From: Streptomyces venezuelae
GTDB lineage: Bacteria > Actinomycetota > Actinomycetes > Streptomycetales > Streptomycetaceae
Direction of reading: 5' to 3'
Assembly: GCF_008642295.1 (NCBI RefSeq)
Contig: NZ_CP029190.1
Coordinates: 4,385,501 to 4,449,500 of the forward strand
Length of the DNA stretch: 64,000 nt
This document shows positions 51,469-59,796 of this stretch, in pieces (positions within the stretch are counted from its first letter, which is position 1; every line of letters begins with the position of its first letter). The notes beneath the pieces are model-generated. The model ran no database searches. It was not told where the DNA came from and worked only from the letters and a program-made list of their open reading frames with translations. Both the position numbers and the translations under genes were made by a program.

Positions 51469-51876
51469 ATGGGTGTGACCGGTCCGATCCGTGTGGTGGT
51501 GGCCAAGCCGGGTCTCGACGGCCACGACCGCGGCGCAAAGGTGATCGCGCGTGCGCTGCGCGATGCGGGGATGGAGGTCATCTACACGGGCCTGCACCAG
51601 ACTCCGGAGCAGATCGTCGACACGGCCATTCAGGAGGACGCGGACGCCATCGGGCTGTCCATCCTGTCGGGCGCGCACAACACGCTGTTCGCCAAGGTGC
51701 TGGAGCTCCTGAAGGAGCGCGATGCCGAGGACATCAAGGTGTTCGGCGGCGGCATCATCCCGGAGGCGGACATCGCTCCGCTGAAGGAGAAGGGCGTGGC
51801 GGAGATCTTCACCCCGGGCGCGACGACGACCTCGATCGTGGACTGGGTCCGCGCGAACGTCCGCTCCGCGGTCTGA
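51469..51876 (+). CDS. icmB: Isobutyryl-CoA mutase small (B12-binding) subunit
   Basis: 135 residues, a single cobalamin-binding domain. The cobalt-ligand His is in [13 protein letters not shown] (DxHxxG), followed by the SILSGAHNT and [10 protein letters not shown] motifs of the base-off/His-on pocket. Length and sequence match stand-alone IcmB of Streptomyces, which pairs with a separately encoded large subunit IcmA to interconvert isobutyryl- and butyryl-CoA. The large subunit is not in this window. ATG at 51469 with ribosome site GGGAGG. Upstream TTAACGTTCGTT (51439-51450) resembles a TetR-family half-site. Confidence 0.88.
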
Positions 51877-51927: not shown

Positions 51928-53496
51928 TCAGGCGGGGGCGGTCAGTTCGGTGAGCATGGCCGCCCGCATCCGCAGGGTGGCCACCAGCCGCTGGAACGCC
52001 TCCGCCCAGTACGCCTCCGCCCCGGCCGCCGCCTCCGCTTCCGCAGGCTCCGGCCGCCGCTCCGCGGCCACCGCCTCCAGCCGCCCCGCCTCCGCCGGAT
52101 CCAGGCAGCGCTCCGCCAGCCCCATCACCCCGCTGAAGCTCCACGGGTAGCTGCCCGCATCCCGCGCCGCCTCCAGCGCGTCCACCACGGCCCGCCCCAG
52201 CTCCCCGGCCCAGGGAACCGCGCACACCCCGAGCAGCTGGAACGCCTCCGAGAGGCCGTGCGCCCGGATGAACTCCGCCACCCAGGCGGCCCGTTCCTCC
52301 TGGGTCAGGGTCTCCAGCAGCTTCGCCCGCTCCGCCAGCGAGGCCGTGCCCGGGCCCGCGGCCGGCGGATCGGTGGCCGCGCCCAGCAGGGCCTTGGACC
52401 ACTCCGGGTTCCGCTGCCGGACCGCGGCCCGGCACCAGGCGGCATGCAGTTCCTCCGCCCAGCCCTCGGCGACCGGTACGGCCACGATCTCCGCCGGGCC
52501 CAGCCCGCCGAACCGGTCCCGCCAGCAGGCCAGCGGCGCCGCCTCCACCAGCTGGCCCAGCCACCAGGCGCGCTCCCCGCGGCCGGCCGGCGGGCGGCGG
52601 ACCACCCCGTCGCGCTCCATCCCCTGATCGCACTCGGCGGGCGGGGTCACCCCCTCCGGGCCCACACAGGCCAGCGCCCGCTCCGCCATCCGCCCGGCCA
52701 GCGCGGACCCGGGCAGCGCCGACAGCAACTCCGCCGCCACCGCCCGCACATTGCGGCTCCGGTCGCCCAGCGCCCGTTCCAGGAACGGCTCGTCCTGCTG
52801 GGACAGCCCCGCCCGCAGCGAGTCCAGGAACATCAGCCGGTCCTCGGCCCGCTCGGTGGCCCAGGTGGTCGAGAGCAGCGCCAGGGCCGCCGCCGGCTGC
52901 GCCGCCCGTACGGCACCCAGCAGGGCCACCCGCTCCGCGAACAGCCCCTCCTCCCACAGCCGGGCCACCCCCTCCCGGTCCCCGGGGTCCGGGAGTTCCG
53001 CTCCGCCCGCCCCGCTGCGCAGGGCGAACCGCCAGTCCGGGTTCAGCCGGGCCAGCCAGTGCCCCCGGGGGCCGGCCAGGGCCAGCGCCTGGGGCCGCAG
53101 GTCGGTCCGCGCCCGGGCCGCGTCCAGCAGGGCCGGCAGCTGAGCGGCCGGCGCCCGGTACCCGTGCCGGGCGGCGGCGGCCAGCCACTGCGGGAGCAGC
53201 TCGGTCAGGTCCGGCGCCGAGCCCCGCCGGCCGCCCCCGGCCCCCGCCCGGCCGGCGAGCAGCTGGGCCAGCCGCCGCCGGGCCGGCTCGGGCGGCTCCG
53301 GCCGCGGATCGGGTGCCGCCGGTTCCGGTCGCGGGCCGGCCTCCGCCGGCCGCAGCCCGGCCCGGCGCCGCAGCGCCTGCACCGCGGCGGCGTCCAGCAG
53401 CGCCTCGGGCGTACCGCCCTGTCTCCGGTCGGTGCCGAGCAGCGCGGTGCCGACCAGCTCCTCCCAGTCCCCGTAACCGTCCCCGTACCCGTTCAC
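51928..53496 (-). CDS. DUF5691 family protein, member of the MoxR/VWA locus
   Basis: 522 residues, soluble, with no signal peptide. GTALLGTDRR near the N-terminus, WLARLNPDWRF and repeated helical pairs (for example RNVRAVAAELLSALPGSALA) suggest a HEAT/ARM-like helical scaffold. I recall this protein next to SWIM, MoxR-AAA, DUF5682 and VWA genes in many actinobacteria and proteobacteria; its function is unknown. GTG start with ribosome site GGGGAGGG, 78 bases downstream of the SWIM gene, so the two probably share a transcript. Confidence 0.82.
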   Translation of the reverse strand: MNGYGDGYGDWEELVGTALLGTDRRQGGTPEALLDAAAVQALRRRAGLRPAEAGPRPEPAAPDPRPEPPEPARRRLAQLLAGRAGAGGGRRGSAPDLTELLPQWLAAAARHGYRAPAAQLPALLDAARARTDLRPQALALAGPRGHWLARLNPDWRFALRSGAGGAELPDPGDREGVARLWEEGLFAERVALLGAVRAAQPAAALALLSTTWATERAEDRLMFLDSLRAGLSQQDEPFLERALGDRSRNVRAVAAELLSALPGSALAGRMAERALACVGPEGVTPPAECDQGMERDGVVRRPPAGRGERAWWLGQLVEAAPLACWRDRFGGLGPAEIVAVPVAEGWAEELHAAWCRAAVRQRNPEWSKALLGAATDPPAAGPGTASLAERAKLLETLTQEERAAWVAEFIRAHGLSEAFQLLGVCAVPWAGELGRAVVDALEAARDAGSYPWSFSGVMGLAERCLDPAEAGRLEAVAAERRPEPAEAEAAAGAEAYWAEAFQRLVATLRMRAAMLTELTAPA

Positions 53497-53574: not shown

Positions 53575-54936
53575 TCACGACAGCGATACCGGCTCCCCCG
53601 TCCCCATATCCGTGTCCGCCTGTGTCTCCGTCTGCCAGGCCGTCAGCGGCACGAAGCCGCGATGGCCGCACTCTCCGAACACCGTCACCGGCCCGCCGCC
53701 CGACAGCGCGGCCAGCTGCCACAGACCGGCCCCGGCCCGCCCGCCGCCGGTCCGCACCGGCAGCGCGTCCTTCCCGTCCGCATCGGCCAGCTGCCAGCCC
53801 AGCTCCCCGGGTATCGGCACCACCGGTCCCAGCACCACCGGCCAGGAATCCAGCCAGGGGTCCTCCCGGAGGGCGGTGCCGTACTCCTCCAGCGCGGCGC
53901 CCGCGCTCATCCCGGCCGGCGGCCGGGAGTGCGGGGCGGGTGCCGCGAACCGGTCGCCGAGATCGGCCCGGAGGCCGGCCGAGCCCGGCCGGAACCGGGC
54001 CTCCGCCTCCAGTACCAGGCCCACCGGCAGGGCCAGTTGGGGCGGGCGGCCGGGCGGCCCGTAATCCATCACCAGGGCCTTGCGGTCGCCCTCCAGGCCC
54101 TGGAGCCAGATCCGCCGGGTGGTCAGCCGGCCGTCCGCGGAGACCGAGTCGTACTGCGCGAGGACCAGCCAGCGGTCCCGCACCGCAGCCGCCCCCTCCG
54201 CGGCTGCGGGCAGTCCCACTCTGGTCCGCACGGTGGCGGCCAGCGGCTCCGGCAGCCCGGCCGCCCCCAGCCAGGCCCGGTCCAGCAGGTGCAGCAGCGC
54301 GCACTCCTCCAGCATCCGGCCCGGCCAGCCCGCGCCGGAGCTGGGGATCGTCCCCAACTCCCGGACCCGGGCGGCCAGTCCGGGCGCCTGGGCGTCGACC
54401 ATCCGGGCCGCCGTCTCCTCCCACACGCCGTATCCCGCCTGCTCCTGTCCGGCCAGTCCGGCGCGCAGCAGATCGGCGAGCCGCCGCTCCAGTTCGGTGA
54501 CCCCCGCCCCGATCCGGCCGGCCCGCCGCTCGGCGCGCCTGCGCGCGGCCTCCGCGTCCGCCGGTGCGGCCGGTGCGGACCGGGCGGCGGCCTTCTCCGC
54601 CCGCTTGGCCAGCCATTCCGCGGCCCAGTCCGGGGCCTCGGCGGGCTCGCCCAGCCCCTCCGCCGCCCAGAGCAGCAGCAGTCCCAGCGCGTGCTTGCAC
54701 GGGAACTTCCGGCTCGGGCAGGAGCAGGTGTACGCCGGCCCGGTCAGGTCCACGACCGTGCGGTACGGCTTGCTGCCGCTGCCCTTGCACCACCCCCACA
54801 CCGCACCGGAAGCGGAACCTCCGGTCTGCGACCACGGACCCGCTCCGCCGAGCTTGCCTCCCGCCTTGCGTGATGCATCGTCAGGAGCCAGAGCCAGTAC
54901 CTGTTCCGCTGTCCAGCGGACCTGCTGCTCAGTCAT
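53575..54936 (-). CDS. SWIM zinc-finger protein of the MoxR/VWA locus (YehQ-like)
   Basis: 453 residues. The SWIM motif CxCx(n)CxH is CSCPSRKFPCKH at about residues 70-81, preceded by the usual strand TVVDLTGPAYT. SWIM domains bind Zn and nucleic acid or protein. The rest is a helical linker and a mixed alpha-beta C-terminal domain (WLVLAQYDSVSADGRLTTRR, WLDSWPVVLGPVVPIPG). The ATG at 54936 lies 7 bases after a TACGGT -10 box, so the message should be leaderless. The promoter carries a TTGTCAGTG element. Divergent from the AAA gene. Confidence 0.87.
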   Translation of the reverse strand: MTEQQVRWTAEQVLALAPDDASRKAGGKLGGAGPWSQTGGSASGAVWGWCKGSGSKPYRTVVDLTGPAYTCSCPSRKFPCKHALGLLLLWAAEGLGEPAEAPDWAAEWLAKRAEKAAARSAPAAPADAEAARRRAERRAGRIGAGVTELERRLADLLRAGLAGQEQAGYGVWEETAARMVDAQAPGLAARVRELGTIPSSGAGWPGRMLEECALLHLLDRAWLGAAGLPEPLAATVRTRVGLPAAAEGAAAVRDRWLVLAQYDSVSADGRLTTRRIWLQGLEGDRKALVMDYGPPGRPPQLALPVGLVLEAEARFRPGSAGLRADLGDRFAAPAPHSRPPAGMSAGAALEEYGTALREDPWLDSWPVVLGPVVPIPGELGWQLADADGKDALPVRTGGGRAGAGLWQLAALSGGGPVTVFGECGHRGFVPLTAWQTETQADTDMGTGEPVSLS

Positions 54937-54943
54937 GGAAACC

Positions 54944-54966
54944 ACCGTAGAGATCCCCACTGACAA
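54944..54966 (-). promoter_or_regulatory. PafBC/RecA-NDp-type promoter of the SWIM gene
   Basis: On the minus strand: TTGTCAGTG (54966-54958), 8 bases, TACGGT (54949-54944). This equals the DNA-damage promoter pattern TTGTCRGTG-N8-TANNNT known from mycobacterial recA and other PafBC targets. The start point would fall at or next to the SWIM ATG. Confidence 0.78.
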
Positions 54967-55003
54967 TCGCTCTGACCTGCAACGACGTTGGGAGCGAGGG
55001 GCG

Positions 55004-55026
55004 TTGTCAGTGGGGTGGTGCACGGT
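55004..55026 (+). promoter_or_regulatory. PafBC/RecA-NDp-type promoter of the MoxR operon
   Basis: TTGTCAGTG (55004-55012), 8 bases, CACGGT (55021-55026). The first element is perfect; the -10 has C in place of the initial T. With the minus-strand copy it forms a 12-bp inverted repeat (CCCCACTGACAA 54955-54966, TTGTCAGTGGGG 55004-55015) with 37 bases between. The transcript would have a leader of about 40 bases containing a GGAGGGGG ribosome site. Confidence 0.68.
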
Positions 55027-55071: not shown

Positions 55072-56178
55072 ATGACCATGTCCGAGAACGGCACCGGTGC
55101 CGAGCCGCTGCGACCGCATGCCGAGGACGCCTTCGCGCACGAACTGAAAGCCCTCGCGGCGGTCGACGACCGGCCCCGCCCGACCCGCTGGAAGCTCTCC
55201 CCGTGGGCCGTCGCCACCTACCTGCTGGGCGGCACCCTGGAGGACGGCACGGTGATCACCCCGAAGTACGTGGGGCCCCGCCGGATCGTCGAGGTCGCCG
55301 TCACCACCCTCGCCACCGACCGCGCCCTGCTCCTGCTGGGCGTCCCCGGCACCGCCAAGACCTGGGTGTCCGAGCATCTCGCCGCCGCCGTCAGCGGCGA
55401 CTCCACCCTGCTGGTCCAGGGCACGGCCGGCACCCCGGAGGAGGCCATCCGGTACGGCTGGAACTACGCCCGGCTGCTGGCCCACGGACCCAGCCGCGAG
55501 GCCCTCGTCCCCAGCCCGGTCATGCGGGCCATGTCCGAGGGCATGACCGCCCGGGTCGAGGAGCTCACCCGCATCCCCGCCGATGTGCAGGACACCCTCA
55601 TCACCGTGCTGTCCGAGAAGACCCTCCCCATACCGGAACTGGGCGAGGAGGTGCAGGCGGTCCGCGGGTTCAACCTCATCGCCACCGCCAACGACCGCGA
55701 CCGCGGGGTCAACGAGCTCTCCAGCGCCCTGCGCCGCCGCTTCAACACGGTGGTCCTGCCGCTGCCCGCGACCGCCGACGCCGAGGTCGACATCGTCGCC
55801 CGCCGGGTCGACCAGATGGGGCGCGCGCTGGACCTGCCCGCCGCCCCCGAGGGCCTGGCGGAGATCCGCCGGGTGGTCACCGTCTTCCGCGAGCTCCGCG
55901 AGGGCATCACCGACGACGGCCGGACGAAGGTCAAATCGCCCAGCGGCACCCTGTCCACCGCCGAGGCCATCTCGGTGGTCACCAACGGCCTTGCCCTGGC
56001 CGCCCACTTCGGGGACGGGGTGCTCCGCCCCTCCGACGTCGCCGCCGGCATCCTCGGCGCGGTCGTCCGCGACCCGGCTGCCGACCGGGTCGTCTGGCAG
56101 GAGTACCTGGAGGCGGTCGTCCGCGAGCGGGACGGCTGGAAGGACTTCTACCGCGCCTGCCGCGAGGTGACGGTATGA
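55072..56178 (+). CDS. MoxR-type AAA+ ATPase (YehL-like)
   Basis: 368 residues. Walker A GVPGTAKT (90-97), Walker B-like and sensor motifs in the later part (NLIATANDRDRGVNELSSAL, then RRRFNTVVLPLP with arginine-finger candidates). MoxR ATPases act as hexameric chaperones with VWA-domain partners. The C-terminus is helical. ATG at 55072 with ribosome site GGAGGGGG. It overlaps the DUF5682 gene by 4 bases and is divergent from the SWIM gene. Gene order AAA-DUF5682-VWA with a linked SWIM gene equals E. coli yehL-yehM-yehP-yehQ. Confidence 0.9.
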   Translation: MTMSENGTGAEPLRPHAEDAFAHELKALAAVDDRPRPTRWKLSPWAVATYLLGGTLEDGTVITPKYVGPRRIVEVAVTTLATDRALLLLGVPGTAKTWVSEHLAAAVSGDSTLLVQGTAGTPEEAIRYGWNYARLLAHGPSREALVPSPVMRAMSEGMTARVEELTRIPADVQDTLITVLSEKTLPIPELGEEVQAVRGFNLIATANDRDRGVNELSSALRRRFNTVVLPLPATADAEVDIVARRVDQMGRALDLPAAPEGLAEIRRVVTVFRELREGITDDGRTKVKSPSGTLSTAEAISVVTNGLALAAHFGDGVLRPSDVAAGILGAVVRDPAADRVVWQEYLEAVVRERDGWKDFYRACREVTV

Positions 56179-58580
56179 CCGCCACCGCCACCGTCACCGC
56201 CGCGGGGCCTCTGCTCCTCGGGGTACGGCACCACGGGCCCGGCTCGGCCCGTGCGGTGCGGGCCGCCCTGGAGGCGGCCCGGCCGGCGGCCGTGCTGATC
56301 GAGGGCCCGCCCGAGGGCGATGCCCTGCTGCCGCTCGCCGCCGACCCCGGGATGCGCCCCCCGGTCGCCCTGCTGGCACACGCGGCCGGCGATCCGGGCC
56401 GGGCCGCCTTCTGGCCGCTGGCCGGGTTCTCCCCCGAATGGGTGGCGATCCGCTGGGCGCAGGAGGCCGGCGTACCGGTCCGGTTCATCGACCTGCCGGC
56501 CGCCCACTCGCTGGCCGCCGAAGAGCAGCCGGGCGACGAGGACGGGGGCCACGACACGGGCGGCGACCCGGGCGGCGCGGTACGGATCGATCCGCTCGCG
56601 GTGCTGGCCGGGACCGCCGGGTACGACGACCCCGAGCGCTGGTGGGAGGACGTGGTCGAGCACCGGGGTGCGGGCCCGGCCGATCCGCTGGCCCCGTTCG
56701 AGGCGCTCGGCGAGGCGATGGGCGCTCTGCGCGAGGCGTACGGGGACGGCGGCCATGCCCGTGACCTGGTGCGCGAGGCGTACATGCGGCAGAAGATGCG
56801 GGCCGCGAAGCGGGAGTTCGGCGCGGGTTACGCGGTGGTGTGCGGGGCCTGGCACGTCCCGGCGCTGCGCGCGAAGACCACCGCGGCGGCCGACAAGGCG
56901 CTGCTGGCCCGACTGCCCAAGGTGAAGGTGGAGACCGCCTGGGTGCCCTGGACGCACCGCCGGCTCGCCCGGGCCGGCGGGTACGGGGCGGGCATCACGT
57001 CCCCGGGGTGGTACGGCCACCTGTTCACCGCCCCCGACCGGCCGGTCGAGCGCTGGCTGACCAAGGTCGCCGGCCTGCTGCGGGCGGAGGACCGGCAGGT
57101 CTCCTCGGCCCATGTGATCGAGGCGGTCCGGCTCGCCGAGACCCTGGCCGCGATGCGCGGCCGGCCGCTGCCCGGCCTCTCGGAGACCCTGGAGGCGGCC
57201 CGGGCGGTGATGTGCGACGGCTCGGACGTGCCGCTGGCCCTGATCGAGGACCGCCTCGTCGTCGGCGACCTGCTCGGCGAGGTCCCGGAGACGGCCCCGA
57301 TGGTTCCGCTCCAGCGCGACCTCGGCCGGCTCCAGCGCTCGCTGCGGCTGAAGCCCGAGGCGGCGGACCGGGAGCTGGAGCTGGACCTGCGCAAGGACAC
57401 CGACGCGGCGAAGAGCCTGCTGCTGCACCGGCTGCGGCTGCTCGGGATCGGCTGGGGCACGCCCACGGTGTCCCGGGGCGGCACCGGCACCTTCCGGGAG
57501 ACCTGGCGGCTGCGCTGGGAGCCGGAGCTGTCGGTGCGGGTGGCCGAGGCCGCCGTCTGGGGCAATACGGTGCAGTCCGCCGCCACCGCCAGGGCGGAGG
57601 CGGACGCAGCCGCCGCGGCGGAGCTGGGTGAGGTCACCTCGCTGGCCGAGCGCTGCCTGCTGGCCGGGCTCTCCGAGGCGCTGCCCGCCGTACTGCGGGC
57701 CCTGGCCGACCGTGCTGCGCTGGACACCGATGTGGCCCGGCTGGCCAAGGCGCTGCCCGCGCTGGCCCGCTCCCTGCGGTACGGGGACGTCCGCGGCACC
57801 GACACCGCCGCGCTGGGCACGGTCGCGGCGGGCCTCGCCGAGCGCATCTGCGTGGCACTGCCGCCCGCCTGCGCGGCCGGACTCGATGCCGACGGTGCGG
57901 CCGAGCTGCGCGGTCATCTGGACGCGGTGCACGGGGCGATCGGCCTGCTGGGCTCCGCCCCGAATACCGCGGACACCCCGGACACCCCGGACACCCCGGA
58001 TGCCCCGGCCGAAGCCGACGGCGCTGCGGGAGCCGAACCGGAACCGGGGCCGGCCGAGCCGGGGCTGGCGGAGCGCTGGGCGGCGGTGCTGCGCACGCTG
58101 GCCGTGCGGGACACCGTCCCCGGGCTGATCCGCGGCCGGGCGGCCCGGCTGCTGCTGGACGAGGGCCGGCTGGCCCCCGAGGAGACGGCCCGGCTGATGG
58201 GGCTGGCCCTGTCCCCGGCAGCGGCCCCGGTGGACGCGGCCGGCTGGATCGAGGGCTTCGCGGGCGGCGGCGCAGGCGGCGGCACCCTGCTGGTCCACGA
58301 CGAGCGGCTGCTCGGCCTGATCGACACCTGGCTGACCGGTATACCGGCCGGCGCATTCACCGACGTACTGCCGTTGCTGCGCCGGACGTTCGGGGCGTAC
58401 GAGACGGGCGTGCGGCGCTCTCTGGGCGAGCTGGCCCGCCGCGGACCGGGCGGCGGCACCGCCCGGTCCGGCCCGGCCGGGTCCGGCGGCTCCGTTGACG
58501 GGTTTGCCCCGGACCTGGACCAGGACCGCGCGGACGCGGTGGTCCCGCTGGTCCGGCTGCTGCTCGGCACGGCCGCCTGA
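56175..58580 (+). CDS. DUF5682 family protein, possible TIKI/EreA-like hydrolase
   Basis: 801 residues, soluble. The N-terminal half has two GxxH motifs, GVRHHGPGS (Gly16-His19) and CGAWHVPAL (Gly224-His227), and an acidic motif LIEGPPEGD (Glu43). This is the pattern of the TIKI/TraB/EreA/ChaN superfamily of metal-dependent hydrolases; the assignment is my inference. The C-terminal half is helical and ends near a 9-bp repeat region coding TPDTPDTPD (about 58000 minus 35 bases). It starts inside the AAA stop codon (ATGA) and is followed 40 bases later by the VWA gene. Confidence 0.84.
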   Translation: MTATATVTAAGPLLLGVRHHGPGSARAVRAALEAARPAAVLIEGPPEGDALLPLAADPGMRPPVALLAHAAGDPGRAAFWPLAGFSPEWVAIRWAQEAGVPVRFIDLPAAHSLAAEEQPGDEDGGHDTGGDPGGAVRIDPLAVLAGTAGYDDPERWWEDVVEHRGAGPADPLAPFEALGEAMGALREAYGDGGHARDLVREAYMRQKMRAAKREFGAGYAVVCGAWHVPALRAKTTAAADKALLARLPKVKVETAWVPWTHRRLARAGGYGAGITSPGWYGHLFTAPDRPVERWLTKVAGLLRAEDRQVSSAHVIEAVRLAETLAAMRGRPLPGLSETLEAARAVMCDGSDVPLALIEDRLVVGDLLGEVPETAPMVPLQRDLGRLQRSLRLKPEAADRELELDLRKDTDAAKSLLLHRLRLLGIGWGTPTVSRGGTGTFRETWRLRWEPELSVRVAEAAVWGNTVQSAATARAEADAAAAAELGEVTSLAERCLLAGLSEALPAVLRALADRAALDTDVARLAKALPALARSLRYGDVRGTDTAALGTVAAGLAERICVALPPACAAGLDADGAAELRGHLDAVHGAIGLLGSAPNTADTPDTPDTPDAPAEADGAAGAEPEPGPAEPGLAERWAAVLRTLAVRDTVPGLIRGRAARLLLDEGRLAPEETARLMGLALSPAAAPVDAAGWIEGFAGGGAGGGTLLVHDERLLGLIDTWLTGIPAGAFTDVLPLLRRTFGAYETGVRRSLGELARRGPGGGTARSGPAGSGGSVDGFAPDLDQDRADAVVPLVRLLLGTAA

Positions 58581-58620
58581 CCGGCACACCACACCACAAC
58601 CACACGAGGGGGACGGACGG

Positions 58621-59796
58621 ATGACGGCAATGCAGGCAGCGGCCGGTACGGATGACGAGCGGCTGCGCAGGTGGCGGCTGGTCCTCGGCGGGGGAGAGGC
58701 CGACGGGACCGGCTGCGCGCTCACCGGCCGGGACGCGGCGATGGATGCCGCGCTCGGCGCGCTCTACGGAGGCGCGGCCGGCGGCGGCCGGCGGCGCGGC
58801 GGGGAGCGGTCGGCCGGCCTCGGCGGCTCGGCGCCGTCGGTGGCCCGCTGGCTCGGCGACATCCGCCAGTACTTCCCCAGCTCGGTGGTGCAGGTGATGC
58901 AGCGCGATGCCATCGACCGGCTCGGGCTGTCCTCGCTGCTGCTGGAGCCGGAGATGCTGGAGGCCGTCGAACCGGACGTCCATCTGGTGGGAACCCTGCT
59001 CTCGCTGAACAAGGCGATGCCCGAGACGACCCGGGAGACCGCCCGCGCGGTGGTCCGCAGGGTGGTGGAGCAACTGGAGAAGAAGCTGGCCTCGCGGACC
59101 CGGGCCACCCTCACCGGAGCCCTCGACCGGTCCGCGCGGATCAGCCGCCCCCGGCACCGGGACATCGACTGGGACCGCACCATCCGGGCGAACCTGAAGA
59201 ACTACCTCCCCGAGTACCGCACCGTCGTACCCGAGCGGCTGATCGGCTACGGCCGGGCGAGCCAGTCGGTGAAGAAGGAGGTCATCCTCTGCATCGACCA
59301 GTCCGGTTCGATGGCCGCCTCCGTGGTCTACGCCTCGGTCTTCGGCGCGGTGCTCGCCTCGATGCGGTCGATCGCCACCCGTCTGGTCGTGTTCGACACC
59401 TCGGTGGTCGATCTGACGGATCAGCTCGACGATCCGGTCGACGTGCTGTTCGGCACCCAGCTGGGCGGCGGCACCGACATCAACCGGGCCCTCGCCTACT
59501 GCCAGTCCAAGATCACCCGGCCGGCCGACACGGTGGTCGTCCTGATCAGCGACCTCTACGAGGGAGGCATCCGGAACGAGATGCTCAAGCGGGTGGCGGC
59601 GATGAAGGCGGCCGGAGTGCAGTTCGTCGCCCTGCTCGCGCTGTCCGACGAAGGGGCCCCTTCCTACGACCGCGAGCACGCCGCTGCCCTGGCCGCACTC
59701 GGCGCGCCCGCCTTCGCCTGCACCCCCGATCTGTTCCCGGAGGTGATGGCCGCCGCGATCGAGAAGCGACCGCTGCCCGAACCCTCGGCTTCGTGA
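58621..59796 (+). CDS. VWA-domain protein, partner of the MoxR ATPase (YehP-like)
   Basis: 391 residues. A helical N-terminal region (1-215) is followed by a von Willebrand A domain with an intact MIDAS: DQSGS (Asp226, Ser228, Ser230), Thr in GGGTDINRAL and Asp in VLISDLYEGG. VWA proteins with MoxR ATPases bind substrates through the MIDAS metal and insert cofactors or remodel complexes. ATG at 58621 with ribosome site GAGGGGGACGG. Last gene of the AAA operon. Confidence 0.9.
   Translation: MTAMQAAAGTDDERLRRWRLVLGGGEADGTGCALTGRDAAMDAALGALYGGAAGGGRRRGGERSAGLGGSAPSVARWLGDIRQYFPSSVVQVMQRDAIDRLGLSSLLLEPEMLEAVEPDVHLVGTLLSLNKAMPETTRETARAVVRRVVEQLEKKLASRTRATLTGALDRSARISRPRHRDIDWDRTIRANLKNYLPEYRTVVPERLIGYGRASQSVKKEVILCIDQSGSMAASVVYASVFGAVLASMRSIATRLVVFDTSVVDLTDQLDDPVDVLFGTQLGGGTDINRALAYCQSKITRPADTVVVLISDLYEGGIRNEMLKRVAAMKAAGVQFVALLALSDEGAPSYDREHAAALAALGAPAFACTPDLFPEVMAAAIEKRPLPEPSAS

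Follow-up and report, generated by a model that had tools for sequence, protein, structure and literature searches.

Two opposed PafBC-type promoter elements are predicted to make a divergent ddrTUVWX-like locus of Streptomyces venezuelae inducible by DNA damage

We analysed a 64-kb stretch of Streptomyces venezuelae DNA (64,000 nt, called the window below), in which a gene for a SWIM zinc finger protein on the minus strand and a gene for a MoxR AAA+ ATPase on the plus strand are separated by 135 bp. This intergene contains two PafBC-type (RecA-NDp) promoter elements that face opposite ways. They are predicted to be two independent promoters, one for each half of a locus resembling the Deinococcus ddrTUVWX operon, and to make the locus inducible by DNA damage; we put the probability of this reading, which was drawn from sequence comparison, at about 0.83.

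The SWIM protein (53575..54936, minus strand; 453 aa, PF04434, DdrT-like) is followed downstream by a DUF5691 protein (51928..53496, minus strand; 522 aa, PF18944, DdrU-like). In the other direction, the MoxR ATPase (55072..56178, plus strand; 368 aa, PF07728, DdrV-like) is followed by a DUF5682 protein (56175..58580, plus strand; PF18934 with E = 2.7e-290 when scanned from 56178, DdrW-like), whose start codon was taken to overlap the MoxR stop codon, and by a VWA/CoxE-like protein (58537..59796, plus strand, exact start uncertain; PF05762, DdrX-like).

The element of the SWIM gene (54944..54966, minus strand) reads TTGTCAGTG-N8-TACGGT and is an exact match in full (TTGTCAGTGGGGATCTCTACGGT). 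The element of the MoxR gene (55004..55026, plus strand; TTGTCAGTGGGGTGGTGCACGGT) reads TTGTCAGTG-N8-CACGGT, with a -10 hexamer of the form CAnnGT that is off the consensus. A sequence-only reading of the window had described the same motif on each strand with these spacers and hexamers, and we confirmed both elements exactly at these positions. When the window was searched for TTGTCAGTG-N8-TANNNT with up to two mismatches, the two elements were the only matches (0.26 expected), and at least two matches arose in only 2 of 100 shuffles of the window. The published RecA-NDp consensus is tTGTCRgtg-8nt-TannnT (PMC5656591). On the SWIM side, the tTGTCRgtg element is exact and the 8-nt spacing leads to TannnT; on the MoxR side, the motif and the 8-nt spacing agree with the consensus but the hexamer does not. 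Because its -10 is CAnnGT instead of TannnT, we describe the MoxR element as PafBC-like, not as a strict member of the class. At the level of sequence, the PafBC-type reading is supported.

From the first T of the SWIM-side motif to the SWIM start codon (ATG, 54936 to 54934 on the minus strand), the distance is 30 nt. If transcription begins at the A of this ATG, TTGTCAGTG would occupy -30 to -22 and be centred on -26, which is consistent with the position of -26 described for the PafBC element (PMC11804915). The MoxR ATG at 55072 has GGAGG ahead of it, and the predicted leader is about 38 nt.

The sequence-only reading had proposed a motif scan across orthologous loci as a check of its prediction. 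A close orthologue of MoxR was present in 80 genomes of the genus (two lists of 56 and 27, with 3 shared), and we read the locus in 75 of them. In all 75, both elements were present with at most one mismatch to TTGTCRGTG-N8-YANNNT. The match was exact in 69 of the 75 on the MoxR side (one mismatch in 6) and in 70 on the SWIM side (one mismatch in 5). Among the five genomes outside the 75, four (G035, G051, G052 and G060) had a SWIM-side site near MoxR in pattern scans, and the fifth (G010) had no site among the matches listed. On both sides, TGTCAG, the A of the -10 and its final T were invariant in 75/75, and the SWIM-side -10 kept its T, A and final T without variation. By contrast with these positions, the flanking columns 6-16 nt upstream of the elements held only 0.05-0.66 bits across the 75 orthologues. 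When the 310 nt before MoxR were shuffled by mononucleotide in 20 rounds, a site was seen in a mean of 0.05 of the 75 sequences. The presence of both sites in every orthologue, compared with this mean, excludes chance, and the conservation indicates that both elements are under selection. The earlier statement that the spacing and pattern are those of PafBC held for the motif and the 8-nt spacing on both sides and fell short at the MoxR-side -10, whose first base was C in all 75.

The distance from the first base of the SWIM-side motif to the ATG was 30 nt in 73 of the 75 orthologues and 29 nt in the other two, and a leaderless SWIM transcript is predicted from this fixed distance. The same prediction had been made from the single sequence. 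The ATG behind the motif opens a SWIM-family protein in 73/75, while in two loci (L078 and L140) it opens a frame of 52 or 49 aa that is not SWIM. The cysteines of the zinc finger were kept in 69 of the 75 and the finger was lost in four (L077, L081, L142 and L146), a call made on visual inspection of the sequence that remains. In these four, as in L151 from a sister genus, the promoter element and the leaderless start were kept although the finger was lost.

The MoxR side has a feature of its own in the genus, a conserved TGGTG in the spacer together with the -10 CAnnGT. The resulting TGGTGCA block (55016-55022 in the window, and the equivalent positions elsewhere) is strongly conserved, whereas the spacer on the SWIM side is freer. 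It may reflect tuning of the -10 or the presence of an additional operator.

The element was also found far beyond this locus. The exact leaderless architecture, TTGTCAGTG-N8-TANNNT-N7-RTG, was present in 61/61 genomes of the genus with 393 sites in total. In the same 61 genomes, the reversed pattern gave 0 sites, a version with a 9-nt spacer, one base longer, also gave 0, and a start codon moved by 3 gave 30 sites in 27 genomes. The 7.5-Mb contig of the present genome has 9 exact TTGTCAGTG-N8-TANNNT sites, and 122 sites with up to two mismatches compared with 27 for the reversed pattern. Outside the window, we read each of the remaining 8 exact sites and 12 of the remaining 25 with one mismatch, and assigned the genes behind them by a simple open-frame rule instead of annotation (L044 was left out of the assignment). 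An exact site lies before recA, whose start codon is 30 nt from the motif. A promoter of this type has reportedly been noted at recA of S. rimosus. Other genes behind exact sites code for SNF2 helicase, macro-domain, WGR, sigma-factor and DUF4132 proteins; one-mismatch sites precede genes for PolA, UvrB, AlkZ-like, HEPN and DUF4253 proteins, and one of the stretches read also has a weaker site followed by an MGMT gene. Six of the scanned products behind sites had no Pfam match (L045 and L047 were outside the scan). At the SNF2 helicase gene (L035/L167, G000:C1:5639383 onward), the exact element is followed by the helicase gene and then directly by another SWIM-domain gene. Outside the family, the exact TTGTCAGTG-N8-TANNNT was not found in 17 of 20 genomes.

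PafB and PafC, the candidate regulator, are encoded by adjacent genes of this genome (G000:C1, around 5985000-5986200). PafC carries PF19187 (HTH_PafC), and the two proteins (L054 P0001 and P0002) match chains of 7p5x (E = 4.6e-56 and 1.1e-50), which we take to be the M. smegmatis transcription complex. The elements of the window share with the PafBC-activated mycobacterial RecA-NDp (P1) the tTGTCRgtg motif, the 8-nt spacing and, on the SWIM side, TannnT, and as in mycobacteria the element stands before recA and other repair genes in a genome that encodes both subunits. Unlike the mycobacterial promoter, the Streptomyces locus has CAnnGT on the MoxR side and two facing copies in one intergene. 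PafBC homologues in Streptomyces were already described in PMC9380542, and PMC8223512 already stated that RecA-NDp extends beyond mycobacteria. For Streptomyces, however, and in contrast to mycobacteria, PMC9380542 described a PafBC-type response as still to be shown; it left the question open and doubted the motif, reporting from an initial search that the PafBC motif known from M. smegmatis seemed not to be conserved in S. venezuelae. Our motif counts disagree with this remark for the genus. With the motif occurring in such numbers, at a precise spacing, and at recA and other repair genes, the question of PafBC in Streptomyces is now directly testable. From these sequences we infer PafBC binding and damage induction at the two elements.

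Promoters of this class could instead be damage promoters read by a factor other than PafBC, such as another WYL protein or ClgR. The genome has nine WYL-domain matches, and recognition of this motif by ClgR has been reported in mycobacteria (PMC5656591), but structures and genetics in mycobacteria tie the motif to PafBC (PMC6789036, PMC11804915) and both PafBC subunits are conserved here. We regard this alternative as unlikely.

The two elements in this genome form a perfect 12-bp inverted repeat (arms 54955-54966 and 55004-55015, read directly from the sequence; the repeat finder gave a 26-nt pair at the intergene with 81% complementarity), and both TTGTCAGTG arms might thus be taken for one palindromic operator through which one regulator controls both genes. 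The gap between the elements, however, ranged from 27 to 719 nt across the 75 orthologues. In 10 of them it reached 500 nt or more, measuring 569-719 nt (L008, L011, L061, L074, L138, L143 and others). The distance from motif to ATG on the SWIM side and that from motif to -10 are fixed, and single copies of the element precede recA and other genes. We therefore rejected a single palindromic operator on the variable gap and consider it very improbable. The inverted repeat that had been noted before does exist at these positions, but with such a gap it is incidental and not a functional unit; each element appears to stay with its own gene, as two promoters without a joint palindrome.

TTGTCA is one base off TTGACA, the consensus -35 hexamer, so that ordinary housekeeping sigma promoters might be proposed. 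Only 11 nt, instead of about 17, separate TTGTCA from the -10, conservation runs across TTGTCAGTGG, and lengthening the spacer to 9 nt left no site in the 61 genomes; a housekeeping -35/-10 promoter was rejected on this spacing, and there is very little chance that it applies. Control by LexA (SOS) would answer to the same stress, with mycobacterial recA having one LexA-dependent and one LexA-independent promoter (PMC5656591) and recA of S. venezuelae carrying an SOS box (PMC9380542), but no SOS box was found in the intergene with up to two mismatches (the nearest matches are at 51854 and 57035), and this reading was rejected as extremely improbable.

The sequence-only reading had called the locus uncharacterised. 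This is not wholly so, because the locus is homologous to a radiation-induced operon of Deinococcus (PMC5552922). Named ddrTUVWX, the operon is described as having an ORF of 78 residues between V and W (PMC9510100), and the gene order in the D. taeanensis record (SWIM, DUF5691, AAA, a 78-aa ORF, DUF5682 and VWA) fits this description. The window and Deinococcus have the same five Pfam families one by one (SWIM, DUF5691, AAA_5, DUF5682 and VWA_CoxE). Compared with D. taeanensis, the MoxR proteins were 71% identical over 360 columns and the VWA proteins 53% identical over 364 columns, and the pairwise match of DUF5691 was weak (34% over 71 aa). From the Pfam agreement, the identities and the published operon, we regard the locus in the window as homologous to ddrTUVWX, with its genes divided between two divergent halves. 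In D. deserti, the SWIM gene Deide_18730 was reported to be induced more than 10-fold by radiation, and Deide_18720, 18710 and 18690 more than 5-fold; the operon (Deide_18730-18690) is described as IrrE-dependent, with an RDRM upstream and products of unknown function (PMC5552922). The control in Deinococcus is LexA-independent and works through IrrE/DdrO, which is unrelated to PafBC, and the Deinococcus genes form one co-directional operon whereas those of the window form two divergent half-operons with PafBC-type elements. The RDRM (DdrO site) had no match in the window with up to two mismatches.

Known MoxR-VWA chaperone pairs, RavA-ViaA and NorQ-NorD, also combine an AAA+ MoxR protein with a VWA protein; the locus in the window differs from them in its partners (DUF5682, DUF5691 and SWIM) and in its predicted regulation. 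A stretch of E. coli K-12 (L211, 2196000-2216000) has WGR yehF, DUF4132 yehI, MoxR yehL, yehM, VWA yehP and SWIM yehQ, with yehH and yehK lying between, and YehM is 29% identical over 571 columns. No DUF5691 is annotated there, and the make-up is nearer to the DUF4132-headed Streptomyces operons described below. DUF5682 was named in no paper found in our search of the open-access literature.

The working that we propose for the promoters is modelled on mycobacterial PafBC, which is activated by single-stranded DNA and adapts the housekeeping polymerase (PMC11804915). After damage, PafBC would be activated by single-stranded DNA and would enable RNA polymerase carrying the housekeeping sigma factor to initiate at both -26/-10 promoters. 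SWIM and DUF5691 would be transcribed together without a leader; the transcript of MoxR, DUF5682 and VWA is expected to carry a leader of about 38 nt and to depend on a weaker -10. What the products do is the least certain part: an AAA+ ring of MoxR, acting with the VWA and DUF5682 proteins, may be directed by the SWIM protein to damaged or single-stranded DNA and may remodel protein complexes there. The targeting may be done by the zinc finger and two predicted OB-like barrels of the SWIM protein. In the structure model of this protein (pLDDT 90.5), the zinc finger region resembled ZSWIM8 and the two barrels resembled RPA70, both short of significance; these likenesses suggest that the MoxR machine is targeted to DNA.

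The five-gene set was thus already known in Deinococcus as radiation-induced and without assigned function. Its position behind an unrelated type of damage promoter in actinobacteria is independent evidence for a role in the DNA damage response. Predicted induction in Streptomyces and reported induction in Deinococcus point to a shared DNA-damage machine, and Streptomyces is a tractable host for learning what the ddrTUVWX-like set does.

Further MoxR operons were found in Streptomyces. In the present genome, a second set consists of DUF4132, MoxR, DUF5682 and VWA genes (L031 and L168; G000:C1:303400-310306), with an exact PafBC-type element 38 nt before the DUF4132 gene. Across the genus, the remaining MoxR matches were grouped into three types according to how closely they matched the query in identity, of which 4/4, 6/14 and 18/21 loci were read. 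The element was present upstream with at most one mismatch in 4/4, 6/6 and 17/18 of these loci (27/28 together), about 3.4-3.9 kb from MoxR in the first two types and 6.0-6.4 kb in the third. Its position at the head of the operon was taken from gene order in a few examples of each type and from the distance in the rest, and no second element with at most one mismatch was seen in the stretches read. Among the "50%" paralogues, 2/11 had the element within 6 kb, and 17/18 had it when the next 3 kb were added, the miss being G012. DUF5682 matches adjoin MoxR matches in 18 genomes; one "44%" MoxR (G034) had no DUF5682 match, and the DUF5682 proteins of this type score low, at about 100 bits.

A wider proposal can be made only tentatively, and we think it is rather doubtful as a whole. 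Machines of the ddrTUVWX type may be a broadly shared damage effector that was captured independently by two unrelated LexA-independent regulators, PafBC in actinobacteria and DdrO/IrrE in Deinococcus; all four types of MoxR operon seen in Streptomyces would then be PafBC targets, and the SWIM protein would bind single strands in the manner of RPA and load the AAA+ machine at lesions.

Outside the genus, 20 loci from 13 other genera of the family were compared. The MoxR element was kept in 16 of them with at most one mismatch and the leaderless SWIM-side element in 12 with at most two; the finger was present in 11 of these 12 SWIM products and absent in L151. Near MoxR, 33 of 34 orthologues from outside the family had no element, and L110 had a single match with one mismatch. 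In other actinobacteria, SWIM and MoxR point the same way, with SWIM about 3 kb further upstream. Of 23 such loci (20 of the 34 plus five named or MAG actinobacterial loci, minus L305 and L307, which were dropped because the SWIM N-terminus was unaligned; L265 was excluded because it contains runs of N), 13 had an element with at most two mismatches 30-31 nt ahead of a SWIM start codon in frame, and the other 10 had none at this position at the same threshold. At other offsets between 24 and 119, the count was 0 to 3 matches each. We therefore rejected the idea that the element is a trait of the family only, as in these 13 it is found at the SWIM start and not near MoxR. The likeliest history would be an ancestral promoter at SWIM, followed in the Streptomyces family by a split of the locus with a second element at MoxR.

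Of 86 loci examined for other phyla, 82 gave a match to SWIM. Two of three Deinococcota loci (L212 and L218, not L241) had an RDRM-like palindrome with one mismatch before SWIM, as did a Chitinophagales locus (L228). Over 80 loci, one-mismatch RDRM-like matches numbered 15 in 441 kb upstream of MoxR compared with 10 in 524 kb downstream. Since such matches also occur downstream and in L228, chance matters here, and the case for the RDRM in Deinococcus rests on the published data. The alphaproteobacterial LexA box was not found at the Rhizobium or Methylobacterium operon. Two Delftia loci (L281 and L285) have LexA-like palindromes some 470 and 380 nt upstream of the estimated SWIM start; these palindromes probably belong with a neighbouring gene. 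In a single cyanobacterial case (L292, a Leptolyngbyaceae MAG), a perfect AGTACNNNTGTTCT, which we take to be a cyanobacterial LexA-like box, is located at 1647-1660, 98 nt before the estimated SWIM start.
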